NCBI GenBank assembly: GCA_016938235.1
Contig: JAFGVA010000225.1
Location: forward strand, 1-43,912
DNA: 43,912 nt
Direction of reading: 5' to 3'
DNA from: Bacteroidales bacterium
GTDB lineage: Bacteria > Bacteroidota > Bacteroidia > Bacteroidales > UBA10428
Part shown: piece after piece, positions 1 through 6,971 of the stretch
How the letters are laid out: every line of letters begins with the position of its first letter
Position numbering within the stretch: position 1 is the first letter of the stretch
Made by a program: the position numbers and the translations under genes
The notes under the pieces: model-generated
Told to the model about the DNA's origin: nothing
What the model saw: only the letters and a program-made list of their open reading frames with translations
Database searches by the model: none

Positions 1-665
1 AACAGATGAGTAAGGAAAACCAGGCTATATTAACTGAACAACAAAAACAAGCCGAGCAGCAGCAGGAACTTGCTGAAAAACAAAGCAGTGAGATAAATAA
101 AGCCAACGAAGCAGTCTTGAAGGAACAGCAAGCCAGGGCAGAAGCCATGGCAAGCGGACAGGATAAAGCCAGCCAGGAACTTGCCAAAGAAAACGATAAA
201 ATTCTTGAGCAACAGCAAGCTGATATAGAGACTGCTTTGCGTGAAATGGAAAAAATCAGGGAAAATTTAGAAAAGGAAAACCGAAAAACACTCACTGAGC
301 AGGAAAAGGCAGCTGTTAAGCAATATATGCAAACCGATATTGAAAGTATGAAAACTTTCAATCAGAACTGGAAAGTTGTTCGCAAGCAACAAAAGGAAGC
401 TTTAAAAAAGTCTGAAGAAAACAGTAAACTTTCAAATGAGTTATCCAAGATTAACCAGGATATACTTGATGCACAGGAGTCTGAAAAATTAAAGAGACAG
501 GTAGAAAACATTAAGTACAGTGAAGAAGTAGCCAAAGAAAATGATAAATATTTCAGAGATCAACAAAAAAAGTTTAAAAAGCTAACAAAACAGCAGGAAA
601 AGGCTCAGCTTAAACTTCAAAAGCTTAATGAAAAGATTTTGCTTGAACAAATAAGAGATAAGTAG
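1..665 (+). CDS. Coiled-coil repeat protein, 3' part (5' end outside window)
   Basis: Lys/Glu/Gln-rich, entirely helical sequence with no signal peptide or membrane segment. It is built of 29-residue repeats with no insertions. Numbering from the ATG at 6, Asn occurs at 5, 34, 63, 92, 121, 150, 179 and 208, and Gln at 12, 41, 70, 99, 128, 157, 186 and 215. A Lys two residues before the Asn and a hydrophobic residue four after it are nearly constant. The first visible Met sits at a repeat position that is otherwise Ile/Leu/Val, and the codon before it also fits the pattern, so this Met is probably internal and the gene starts upstream of the window. A period of 29 equals two hendecads plus a heptad, which suits a long coiled coil. 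The function is unknown; a structural or scaffolding role is inference only. The gene is convergent with the kinase gene that ends 5 bp away. Confidence 0.75.
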   Translation, partial: QMSKENQAILTEQQKQAEQQQELAEKQSSEINKANEAVLKEQQARAEAMASGQDKASQELAKENDKILEQQQADIETALREMEKIRENLEKENRKTLTEQEKAAVKQYMQTDIESMKTFNQNWKVVRKQQKEALKKSEENSKLSNELSKINQDILDAQESEKLKRQVENIKYSEEVAKENDKYFRDQQKKFKKLTKQQEKAQLKLQKLNEKILLEQIRDK

Positions 666-670
666 ACATG

Positions 671-2581
671 TTAAAAAAATCTGCTACTTCTCAGGCTTTT
701 CAAATAGATAATAAACTCAGAACCGGCTCCGGGATCGCTGACAACTTCAATTCTGCCATCAAGCATATGCAGCAGATCCAATACTATTGCAAGGCCTAAA
801 CCTGAAGAATGTTCGTTTGCTGTTGGTCTGGCTTTTAACCTGGCAAATTTCTGGAAAAGTTTTTGCTTGTCGTCGGCATCAATTCCGGGACCTTCGTCTT
901 TACAACTAAAAATATATTCATGTTCAGATTTAGTTAAAGAAATCCACACATTCTTTCCTGATGGCGAAAATTTAATAGCGTTGGAAATAATATTATTAAT
1001 TATACGGGTAATTAAACGTTCATCGCTAACTATAGAATAGTTTAATTCTTCAAAAGGAATATAATGTACCTTAATATCTTTTTTTGAAGCGGTTTTATCA
1101 AAATTTGACTTTGCCTCCTGTACTAACTGATTTAAATTCAGTTCACTAATTTTGGTTTTAATGCCTCCTTGTTCAATGTTCTTAAGGTAAACAAGGTCTT
1201 CAATAAGCTGTTCAGCATTAAGGGTAGCACTATTGAGTAAACCAAACAGTTCATTTTGTTCATCGTTGTATGTGCCTGAAGTGCTTAACAATTCAACAAT
1301 GCTTTTAATGTTTGAAATAGGCGTTTTTAAATCATGAACCAGAAATCCTACCAACGAAGAATTACTTTTCATTAACTCGTTAAGTTTAATGTTCTGGTTA
1401 TGTATTTTTGTTTGTTGTTCGCGAAGCAAATTGTTGTCTTTAACCTTTAGCCGATAGTTTATAAAGAAAGTAAAAACAAATATTGTAGTTAAAGCAAGGA
1501 AAAACAGCAGGTAAATTTTAGTTAAGTCATCCTTTCTTTGTTGCTTCTTAACTTCAAACTCTCTTTCTTCCTGTTCCTTTTCATACTGAAGTCTTAATTT
1601 CTCACGCGAGATTAGCGATGTAAACTCCTGCTGAAATAAAGTATCGTGAAATTCCTTATACTCAAGAAGATAATTATATGCCTTTTCAAAATCCTTTTTC
1701 ATACTGTATACTTTGCTCAGACCTTCAACAGCGTATTCAATTTCCTGAAGAATATTGGATTGTCTGGCATATTTTTCACTCTTTTTCCAGTATTGCAATG
1801 ATTTGTCATAATCTCCTATCTTGTAATAATATTCAGCATAAGAACTATAAATAGTGGATAAATCAACAAGGTTTCCTTCATTTTCTTTTTGCAATAAACT
1901 CTGGTTTAAATAGTACAAAGCCGAATCGTACATGCCCTTCTTAAGGTATATATTGCCCATATTGTTTAGTGCATACGAATCGTCTCCATAATTCACACTG
2001 TGCAAAACAGCTTTCTTGTAATATACCAGTGCAGAATCATATTTTCCCAGATTCCAGAATGCTACACCCAGGTTGTTGAATACTTTTGAGAACCCGCTGG
2101 AATCATTTACTTTGGAATAGTATTTATACGATTCGTTATAAAGTTTTATGGCTTCTTCAGTAAGAAAATAGTCCGACATAATAACTCCTTCGAGTAATTT
2201 GGCATATCCCATTTCCTGAAAATCGCTGACTTGTTTTGCACAATCAAAAGATTGCCATACCTCCTCAAGAGCCTTAAAAGGTTCTGCCTTATAAAAGCTT
2301 ATAATACTTTTAACATGCAGTGCCTTAGCTTTAATTGTAAGGCAGTTAATTTTATCGCATTGTTCGATACATAAATCAGAATAGTAGCTCGATTTTACAA
2401 GATCATCAGTAACATAAGCTTTAGCCAGCTCAAAATATAAACCTGCTTTTAAACTATCGTTTTGTTCTTTCTCCGAAAGTACCAACAGAGAGTCAATAAA
2501 AGTGCTTTTTTGTGAATTACCAGTCTGACAAAGAATTATAAAAAGAAGAAAAAAAGTGAAATGTGAAGTTACTTTTATCAT
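671..2581 (-). CDS. TPR-repeat sensor histidine kinase
   Basis: Membrane-bound sensor kinase of 636 residues. It has a signal peptide (1-24), a periplasmic TPR solenoid (about 40-330, with repeats such as YDSALVYYKKAV and YDSALYYLNQSL), a charged coiled coil (320-352) and one membrane helix (356-378). The HisKA domain carries the H-box FLVHDLKTP with phospho-acceptor His416. The ATPase domain has N-box Asn529/530, G1 DEGPGID (562-568) and G2 GLGLAIV (594-600). There is no HAMP, PAS or receiver domain, so a separate response regulator is expected, and none lies nearby. The TPR region probably binds a periplasmic protein or peptide; the ligand cannot be read from sequence. The family is common in Bacteroidota. 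Confidence 0.93.
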   Translation of the reverse strand: MIKVTSHFTFFLLFIILCQTGNSQKSTFIDSLLVLSEKEQNDSLKAGLYFELAKAYVTDDLVKSSYYSDLCIEQCDKINCLTIKAKALHVKSIISFYKAEPFKALEEVWQSFDCAKQVSDFQEMGYAKLLEGVIMSDYFLTEEAIKLYNESYKYYSKVNDSSGFSKVFNNLGVAFWNLGKYDSALVYYKKAVLHSVNYGDDSYALNNMGNIYLKKGMYDSALYYLNQSLLQKENEGNLVDLSTIYSSYAEYYYKIGDYDKSLQYWKKSEKYARQSNILQEIEYAVEGLSKVYSMKKDFEKAYNYLLEYKEFHDTLFQQEFTSLISREKLRLQYEKEQEEREFEVKKQQRKDDLTKIYLLFFLALTTIFVFTFFINYRLKVKDNNLLREQQTKIHNQNIKLNELMKSNSSLVGFLVHDLKTPISNIKSIVELLSTSGTYNDEQNELFGLLNSATLNAEQLIEDLVYLKNIEQGGIKTKISELNLNQLVQEAKSNFDKTASKKDIKVHYIPFEELNYSIVSDERLITRIINNIISNAIKFSPSGKNVWISLTKSEHEYIFSCKDEGPGIDADDKQKLFQKFARLKARPTANEHSSGLGLAIVLDLLHMLDGRIEVVSDPGAGSEFIIYLKSLRSSRFF

Positions 2582-3961: not shown

Positions 3962-4570
3962 ATGTTATCGACTCCAATTCTTGCAATTTTCAGAGGTATC
4001 GGCATAGAACATGTGCAATCCCTGGTTAAAAGCTGCATAGATGCCGGCCTGGATAGTATTGAAGTGACCATGAATACCGAAAACGCAAGTTCAATAATCG
4101 AAGAGTTTAAACAAATTTCAGGAAACAGGCTTCAAGTTGGAGCCGGGACAGTATTATCAGAATCGGATTTGGCAAATGCTCTTTCTGCCGGCGCGGAATT
4201 CATTGTTACACCGGTAGTCAATAAAAATGTGATTGTAACATGCAGGGATAAGAATATTCCTGTTTTCCCCGGTGCTTTAACCCCCACCGAAATTTGGGAA
4301 GCATGGCAATACGGAGCCGAAATGGTTAAGGTATTTCCTGCCGGTGTTTTTGGTCCGAAATACCTCAAAGATTTGCATGGACCTTTAAATGAAGTAAAAC
4401 TGATGGCTGTTGGTGGGGTTAATAGCGAAACCATTGTTGATTATTTTAAGGCAGGGGCTTCTGCTGTGGCTATCGGTGGAAGTATTTTCAGTAAAGAGCG
4501 TCTTGAAAAGAAACAATTTAACCTGATTACCGAAGATTTGAAAAATCTTGTCGCAAAAATCTCATACTAA
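3962..4570 (+). CDS. eda: KDPG / 4-hydroxy-2-oxoglutarate aldolase
   Basis: Class I aldolase of 202 residues, the normal length for Eda. It cleaves 2-keto-3-deoxy-6-phosphogluconate to pyruvate and glyceraldehyde-3-phosphate. Expected motifs are present: FRGI near the N-terminus, IEVT with Glu34, GAGTVL (60-65), FPGALTPTE (102-110), the Schiff-base lysine Lys123 in MVKVFPAG, and the phosphate-binding AVGGVN (149-154) and AIGGS. No 6-phosphogluconate dehydratase (edd), kdgK or uronate gene is nearby, so it may serve sugar-acid catabolism with partners encoded elsewhere. The stop codon overlaps the start of the next gene (TAATG), which predicts translational coupling. The exact substrate (KDPG, KDPGal or KHG) cannot be told from sequence. 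Confidence 0.93.
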   Translation: MLSTPILAIFRGIGIEHVQSLVKSCIDAGLDSIEVTMNTENASSIIEEFKQISGNRLQVGAGTVLSESDLANALSAGAEFIVTPVVNKNVIVTCRDKNIPVFPGALTPTEIWEAWQYGAEMVKVFPAGVFGPKYLKDLHGPLNEVKLMAVGGVNSETIVDYFKAGASAVAIGGSIFSKERLEKKQFNLITEDLKNLVAKISY

Positions 4571-4980
4571 TGGATAAAGCTTACGAAATCAAGAAAACCT
4601 ACCTTGCCATGTTAATTCTGATTGAAAATGCTGATGGGAAAATCGATGAGTGGGAAGAACGATATATTGATACTATCGCTGATAAATTAGAAATCAATTG
4701 CACCGATAAATTCGAAATAAAAAAGAACCCTGTGGCCAGTGTTACCCAATTGCCCGATACTTATGAGCAAAGAATAGAGTTTTTTTACAACCTGTTATTT
4801 ATGATGGGCATCGACAACGATATTACCGAAGAAGAAAAGGAACTATGCAGAAAGGTCGGATTTAAATTATGTTTTAACCCAATGCTGATGGAAGACTTGA
4901 TTACAATTATGTCGGAGAGTTTAGGTAAAAAAGTTCCGGCTGACCAGGTTATCAATGCAGTTATAAAATACCAGAATTAG
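4570..4980 (+). CDS. TerB-like helical acidic protein
   Basis: A 136-residue cytoplasmic, all-helical protein. Two acidic motifs, NADGKIDEWEE (about 20-30) and NDITEEEKEL, are arranged as in the TerB/DjlA-N-like fold, where they often bind divalent metal. It has no signal or membrane segment. Its ATG shares a base with the stop codon of the aldolase gene, so the two are almost certainly cotranscribed and coupled, although no functional link between TerB-like proteins and KDPG aldolase is known to me. The family assignment rests on motif pattern alone. Confidence 0.7.
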   Translation: MDKAYEIKKTYLAMLILIENADGKIDEWEERYIDTIADKLEINCTDKFEIKKNPVASVTQLPDTYEQRIEFFYNLLFMMGIDNDITEEEKELCRKVGFKLCFNPMLMEDLITIMSESLGKKVPADQVINAVIKYQN

Positions 4981-6620: not shown

Positions 6621-6971
6621 TCATTCAACTAAATTCACCGAAGCCTTAAACTTAAAATTAAGCAGGGCATACCCGGTTGTTTTGCTAAAATAGGTTTCTC
6701 TGAATGTTTTTAGTGAACGGGCACTGAAACAGTCTTCTTCAACTTTTGTTACTATACATTTAGTATTGTTTACAAAGACCGTACAACCAACTTTAACATC
6801 TTTTAAACTACCGGGCTTATACTTAAAAACTTTTAAATACCTTGCGTATTCATAATTAATAAGCTTCATTATCTCGGTATTTCCGCCCTTATCTGGATGA
6901 TGTTTTTTAACCAGTTTACGGTATGTGCTTTTTAATTCTTCCTCGCATAAAACCCCTTTAAAATACTTCAT
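6621..6971 (-). CDS. Small J-domain (DnaJ-like) protein
   Basis: A 116-residue protein whose N-terminal half is a compact J-domain: helix II STYRKLVKKHHPDKGGN contains the HPD motif (25-27) needed to stimulate the DnaK ATPase, followed by helix III (MKLINYEYARYLKV). The usual helix I is very short, since the protein starts with KYFKGVLCEEEL. The C-terminal half (about 55-116) is a small beta-rich unit with no Gly/Phe linker or zinc-finger domain, so it is a type III-like J-protein of unknown client. It is a single gene, divergent from the following gene. Confidence 0.8.
   Translation of the reverse strand: MKYFKGVLCEEELKSTYRKLVKKHHPDKGGNTEIMKLINYEYARYLKVFKYKPGSLKDVKVGCTVFVNNTKCIVTKVEEDCFSARSLKTFRETYFSKTTGYALLNFKFKASVNLVE

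Follow-up and report, generated by a model that had tools for sequence, protein, structure and literature searches.

A lineage-specific family of 29-residue helical repeat proteins, possibly envelope filaments, in a small group of Bacteroidales

The gene at the left edge of the window, by which we mean the whole 43,912-nucleotide stretch of DNA analyzed here, encodes part of a protein built of 29-residue repeats. As judged from sequence, this protein belongs to a real, strongly patterned and lineage-specific family without a name, found in a small group of Bacteroidales. We give a probability of about one-half to the reading that it is a secreted fibrous protein, specific to this lineage, that works on the far, envelope-facing side of the inner membrane as a stiff filament or spacer with a structural role.

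The window corresponds to the entire contig C113 (1-43912) of genome G000 (5.22 Mb, 239 contigs), and window base 1 is the first base of the contig. The 3′ part of the gene occupies positions 3-665 on the plus strand, as an open frame of 220 codons plus a TAG that runs off the 5′ end, and its 5′ part lies on contig C124 (L004:1-2205, minus strand). Glu, Lys and Gln are the dominant residues of the protein. When cut at the Asn phase, the window part divides on the plus strand into seven units of 29 residues, namely KENQAILTEQQ... (12-98), KANEAVLKEQQ... (99-185), KENDKILEQQQ... (186-272), KENRKTLTEQE... (273-359), NQNWKVVRKQQ... (360-446), KINQDILDAQE... (447-533) and KENDKYFRDQQ... (534-620), followed by a partial eighth unit with the C-terminus, KLNEKILLEQIRDK (621-662). 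A motif N-[EQ]-K-I-L-L near the C-terminus is common to the window part, G008, G010 and G012 (4 of 10 C-termini).

The initial annotation had reported eight repeats with an Asn at exactly 29 residues, and this was upheld: Asn occurs at residues 6, 35, 64, 93, 122, 151, 180 and 209 (8/8), so that 8 of the 14 Asn of this part fall on one 29 phase, which 0 of 20,000 random placements matched. With Asn masked, lag 29 still ranked 4 of 125, after its own multiples 116, 87 and 58, and none of 200 shuffles reached it. These data confirm that the 29-residue pattern in the window is real and far above shuffles. The Gln seven residues after the phased Asn (unit position 10, the Asn being position 3) had also been called invariant. 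This holds for the eight window units (8/8) but not family-wide, where position 10 is Gln in 70 of 177 distinct units.

A nucleotide search of the G000 genome with the window part led to contig C124 (93% over 165 nt). Read in reverse, this contig holds 735 codons (L004:1-2205, minus strand) in a frame ending at the contig end. From codon 13 the frame reads like a signal peptide (MRFTFFFLCFFTLLFSSLNLSAQ), and then come a basic linker, TDYSIDKVNVPLTMRI and some 20 further units; 18 of the 38 Asn beyond residue 60 fall on one 29 phase. More repeats had been expected upstream of the window, and here they are. The Met at window 6-8 is likewise no start, as had been argued from its hydrophobic repeat position: it sits at hydrophobic unit position 28, and the C124 frame crosses the same stretch from upstream. 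Window positions 3-167 (plus strand) match the final 165 nt of the C124 part at 93% (153/165) without being identical, and when the last 55 codons of the C124 part are set against the opening 55 of the window part, 50 of 55 residues are the same; the overlap is inexact. The 93% stretch may represent a further copy in tandem, or else a variant due to strain differences or to assembly. The G000 protein would be about 890 aa long if the two contigs cover a single place twice, and about 945 aa or more if there are two copies. In G008, the two parts of the gene have a common 115-nt stretch at 94%; since a different unit precedes this stretch in each part, the arrangement argues for two copies within the G008 gene itself.

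We then asked how far the family extends. A profile of the N-terminal head matched 11 of the 23 genomes of the window's taxonomic family, comprising 8/9 of g1 (the window's genus), 2/2 of g5, 1/1 of g3, 0/10 of g4 and 0/1 of g2. Because 9 of the 11 profile rows were drawn from g1, g3 or g5 genomes in which the gene was known beforehand, what these matches tell us is only how far the family reaches. The head, YSIDKxxxPL-like, follows a signal-like N-terminus, with YSID in 9 of 11 aligned N-termini (YRID in G007, YSVD in G139) and PL kept in 10 of 11. All 10 N-termini examined carry a hydrophobic segment, and no further hydrophobic segment was found in 18 pieces (highest 19-residue mean, 0.12). 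The order-wide search with the head profile matched 5 of 392 genomes. Two of these, G227 and G349, were dropped, as the match covered the signal peptide and a few residues and the repeat was absent. G139, from another family of the same order, has the head at a contig end (L045:1-241) and an array that mixes 29- and 26-residue units on a second contig (L108:1-1065). Class-wide, 7 of 395 genomes matched, the six besides G000 weakly (E 5e-6 to 8e-4); since G000 was the sole genome matched by the repeat profile in the class sample (395 genomes, E 1e-6), we attribute these six to the signal peptide.

The profile of three repeat units matched 10 of the 23 genomes of the taxonomic family at E 1e-5 and 3 of 392 in the order sample (G000, G007 and G139), and nothing beyond its own genome in the class sample (1/395, E 1e-6) or the phylum sample (1/247). 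The profile rows (A6) came from G000, G001, G005, G006, G008, G012 and G014, where matches are partly by construction; those in G002, G007, G010 and G139 are independent of these rows. That so few genomes were matched indicates that the profile picks up this repeat specifically and does not respond to coiled coils in general. The profile search in Bacteroidota that the initial annotation had proposed thus confined the repeat, in these samples, to part of the taxonomic family and G139.

No named family was recognized at the outset, and none emerged: there was no accepted Pfam match in 6 pieces (the window and C124 parts, E up to 1; four homologues, E up to 0.01) and no accepted NCBIfam match in the 2 pieces scanned. 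Candidate hits on the window part, DUF220 (E 0.022) and DUF2015 (E 0.92) in Pfam and PRK06124.1 (E 0.32) in NCBIfam, lay far below the cut-offs and were rejected. Searching PDB sequences with the window part returned nothing at E 0.01. Our literature search found no paper on the repeat family, although one may still exist.

Across 18 pieces we collected 177 distinct units, with Asn at position 3 in 164, a count biased upward because the units were chosen by Asn. Between chained Asn in these pieces there are 188 spacings, 157 of 29 and 13 of 58, a distribution biased by chaining that favors 29; the others are 26 (6), 25 (5), 23 (2), 22 (2), 28, 42 and 90. Thirteen of the 18 spacings other than multiples of 29 equal 29 minus 3, 4 or 7, and length changes of 3, 4 or 7 residues can be absorbed by a helix. 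Loss of the phase in homologues had been named beforehand as the finding that would speak against the repeat. In part this is what we see: most homologues preserve the phase, but in G010 and G139 spacings of 26 and other lengths occur alongside 29. In 12 of 14 pieces, at most 4 of 5000 shuffles reached the observed Asn phase; in G002_N and G010, where 844 and 1132 did, the Asn phase alone is not significant. G012, G007_C, G139_C and G002_C were added later and entered the lag test only. With Asn masked, lag 29 ranked fifth or better in 15 of 18 pieces and was weak in G005_C (rank 14 of 125, reached by 10 of 200 shuffles), G139_C (rank 9) and G002_C (rank 10).

The units are grouped in blocks of three (87 residues) or four (116 residues). 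Lag 87 was strongest in G000_N, G008_N, G006_N, G001_C, G001_N, G005_N and G005_C, and lag 116 in G000_C, G007_N and G007_C; the strongest lags were 55 in G010 and 194, 84 and 55 in G139_C. Units of one type, [YH]NxxxLxxExGxYAE or a variant of it, stand exactly 87 residues apart, with five occurrences in G000 and G008 and three in G006, and G012 has Gly at 171, 258 and 345, again 87 apart. The Gly unit of this 87-residue type is absent from the window part.

Block duplication is seen directly in G007. At the beginning of its second contig (L107:1-1582), a 348-bp block (116 aa) is repeated 2.7 times with 94% matching, and a different 348-bp block then occurs in 1.9 copies, also at 94%; its first contig ends in the same 348-bp block, with an exact 122-nt overlap between the contigs. 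The G007 protein, 534 plus 1035 codons minus the overlap, is therefore at least ∼1,530 aa long. Complete open copies on single contigs are those of G010 (408 aa) and G012 (479 aa, L050:9983-11419). In 10 of 12 genomes a contig ends inside the repeat gene, compared to 2.3 expected for a 3-kb gene or 3.8 for a 5-kb gene (P ∼3e-7 or 4e-5, with rounded genome sizes and assumed gene lengths); the count includes G003 and G006, which are very fragmented assemblies. The breaks likely result from the collapse of near-identical blocks. G007 is nevertheless the one genome that shows long identical repeats; TRF detected none in the first G007 contig or in either part of the G000 gene (window and C124). 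Because the gene is cut in 10 of 12 assemblies, current genomes do not reveal how long it really is. The in-frame duplication of blocks makes the family a test case for the evolution of filament length.

We further analyzed the geometry of the repeat. Twenty-nine residues over eight turns give 3.625 residues per turn, and the hydrophobic pattern of the 177 units fits 3.63 best. When positions were shuffled 20,000 times, 29 shuffles equalled the hydrophobic moment at 3.625 and 1 equalled the Lys/Arg moment, at -151 degrees. Hydrophobic residues occupy position 28 in 84% of units, position 6 in 63%, position 7 in 60% and position 24 in 49%; the hydrophobic stripe runs through positions 28, 6, 24, 2 and 17, plus 7 past a polar strip. 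The strip (Gln10, Gln/Asn21, Asn3 and Ser25, at about +11 to +61 degrees) is flanked by hydrophobic seams at -64 to 0 and at +73 degrees, and Lys/Arg occupy the opposite side at positions 23, 12, 5, 19 and 1 (54-69%). According to passages in PMC4786415, an ideal straight helix has ∼3.63 residues per turn, as against 3.5 in heptads and 3.67 in hendecads. With a whole number of turns (eight) in each unit, neither the hydrophobic nor the Lys/Arg stripe winds around the predicted helix, and since the best fit is the straight-helix value in that source, the period implies almost no supercoil and a nearly straight bundle. The initial annotation had broken the period down into two hendecads and a heptad and had deduced a defined supercoil from it. 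The sum of 11, 11 and 7 stands, and with eight core layers per unit a register of 4x7+1 would fit as well as 7+11+11, the two having the same total; a marked supercoil does not follow from it. The Asn/Gln layers suggested there to stack between helices are putative but fit the angles of the unit.

Structure prediction agreed with a helical rod. For the window part, AlphaFold, which had been proposed as a check, returned a single helix at 2-219 (mean pLDDT 92.6, pTM 0.34, shallow alignment of 2 rows). The complete 479-aa G012 protein was predicted as helices at 54-169, 182-343 and 347-478 (mean pLDDT 77.1, shallow alignment of 5 rows), opening at 170-181 and 344-346 and with confidence falling to 69 near 258. 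A helix predicted from a single chain carries no information on partner helices. Charged residues account for 39-54% of the 8 pieces counted. In a charge analysis of 8 of the 18 pieces, no stagger was common to the eight; a charge period of 29/5 exceeded the 95% shuffle level in four of them (G000_N, G000_C, G008_N and G001_C).

Taken together, these data suggest the following model for the secreted filament or spacer. A signal peptide, as read from the sequence, would carry the protein over the inner membrane. The short conserved head (YSIDKxxxPL or close) would be followed by a rod of 29-residue alpha-helical units, whose helices may pair or bundle by the hydrophobic stripe, with the Asn layer setting register and orientation. 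Rod length would be set by block duplication, from 408 and 479 aa in the complete copies to ∼1,530 aa or more in G007. At a helix rise of 0.15 nm per residue, a helix of 400-1,500 residues measures 60-220 nm; because this exceeds the width of the periplasm, the rod would presumably lie along the envelope or be exported. A structural role seems most likely, given how large the rod is, that it has just one hydrophobic segment and that no catalytic domain was recognized. No anchor or sorting domain that would place the protein was found (Pfam, 6 pieces; NCBIfam, 2 pieces).

The core-face positions 3, 10, 21 and 14 are mostly polar or charged, and this only partly hydrophobic face is a point against a classical coiled coil. 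It fits a monomeric single alpha-helix, a charged helix stabilized by Glu-Lys pairs and acting as a stiff spacer without a partner, as do the charge content and the dominance of Glu, Lys and Gln; the lone AlphaFold helix fits as well, inevitable as it is for one chain. To our knowledge, however, single alpha-helix domains lack a hydrophobic stripe, and a stripe as strict as this one (84% at position 28 and 60-63% at 6 and 7 in 177 units), together with a fixed Asn, would be needless in such a helix, which leaves this alternative doubtful. An exported, adhesin-like surface rod, whose homogenized repeats evolve fast through exposure on the cell, would account for the near-identical tandem copies, the large differences in length among species and rods longer than the periplasm is wide. 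We consider it unlikely, as the pieces searched in Pfam (6) and NCBIfam (2) have no sorting domain or anchor, the C-terminal tails are short and an adhesive head domain is absent.

The strip of Gln10, Gln/Asn21, Asn3 and Ser25 between two hydrophobic seams would also suit a helical barrel with a lumen lined by Asn, Gln and Ser, a conduit resembling the phiX174 H protein, whose tube, in the passages available from PMC7354561, is built of hendecads and heptads and lined mainly by Asn, Gln and Arg. With position 3 removed, however, the amide moment is weak, being reached by 1243 of 20,000 shuffles, and a barrel is improbable. That the pattern is an artefact of assembly or low complexity, with no real gene behind it, is hardly credible. 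The gene is indeed cut by a contig end, with two parts that overlap inexactly at 93%, but this reading is contradicted by the complete open copies of G010 (408 aa) and G012 (479 aa) on single contigs, by the conserved head and by a conserved genome position in part of the family.

A period of 29 is rare for a coiled coil, though precedent exists. Beta-giardin has a 29-residue motif like that of SF-assemblin, for which Pfam holds a family; no match to that family was obtained with the window and C124 parts (E up to 1) or four homologues (E up to 0.01). SF-assemblin is described, in the parts of the sources available (PMC6070942, PMC8435291), as an alpha-helical filament protein with a non-helical head and a rod of consecutive 29-residue motifs; each motif consists of four heptads and a skip residue, and the protein forms 2-nm protofilaments with 28 nm striations (PMC8435291). 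Consecutive 29-residue helical motifs are found in the repeat family too. SF-assemblin as described there, however, is eukaryotic (striated fibres of protists) with a rod of ∼240 residues, whereas the repeat family is bacterial, has a signal-peptide-like start, is organized in 87- or 116-residue blocks and reaches ∼1,530 aa or more. SF-assemblin is the closest in kind, by likeness and not by membership, because Pfam reveals no sequence relation. We offer only tentatively the idea of a bacterial counterpart to SF-assemblin beyond the inner membrane, in which a straight, non-supercoiled 29-residue filament would act as an envelope skeleton or ruler, with a Gly joint at 87-residue intervals and a length that changes rapidly as blocks of 87 or 116 residues are duplicated. 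If true, nature would have a long helical rod that avoids supercoiling by a period matching the helix (29/8 = 3.625), and such a rod would be useful for coiled-coil theory and design.

Other long helical proteins are less similar. The bacterial intermediate filament-like proteins crescentin, FilP and Scy are also long coiled-coil rods that form filaments, according to the partial accounts compared. They are cytoplasmic and are not known to have a signal peptide, and a 51-residue repeat is attributed to Scy/FilP, although the papers listed in our search did not name it; the repeat family, in contrast, has a hydrophobic N-terminal segment in 10/10 N-termini and no Pfam match. The phiX174 H protein resembles it in its long helices, hendecads and heptads and inward-facing amide residues, as described in part in PMC7354561, but H is a decameric viral tube, whereas the period here is 29. 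The myosin II rod, in passages from PMC2204051, has a 28-residue charge repeat, skip residues and charge-guided packing, whereas here the period is 29 throughout, with no consistent charge stagger (8 pieces) and no Pfam match.

Finally, we compared the surroundings of the gene. It comes after a metallophosphoesterase gene (PF00149 in the one scanned) in 7 of 11 genomes (G000, G001, G002, G003, G005, G006 and G007). This neighbor was not seen in G008, G012 or G014, and in G010 it lies ∼2 kb off on the opposite strand. On the other side, an aldolase-like gene (KDPG aldolase by eye) and a TerB-like gene are common to G000 and G014, and TerB-like and FG-GAP genes to G000 and G008; in the window the TerB-like protein (PF05099) is encoded at 4570-4980 on the plus strand, adjoining the aldolase-like gene. 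No signs of mobile elements were seen among the neighboring genes of these genomes, and the position would fit one old chromosomal locus. Within the window, a TPR histidine kinase gene (671-2581, minus strand) is convergent with the repeat gene. A small ORF with a J-domain-like HPDKGG motif, recognized by eye, lies at 6621-6971 on the minus strand, and an ORF similar to it is found near the G008 locus (L027:15785-16156).
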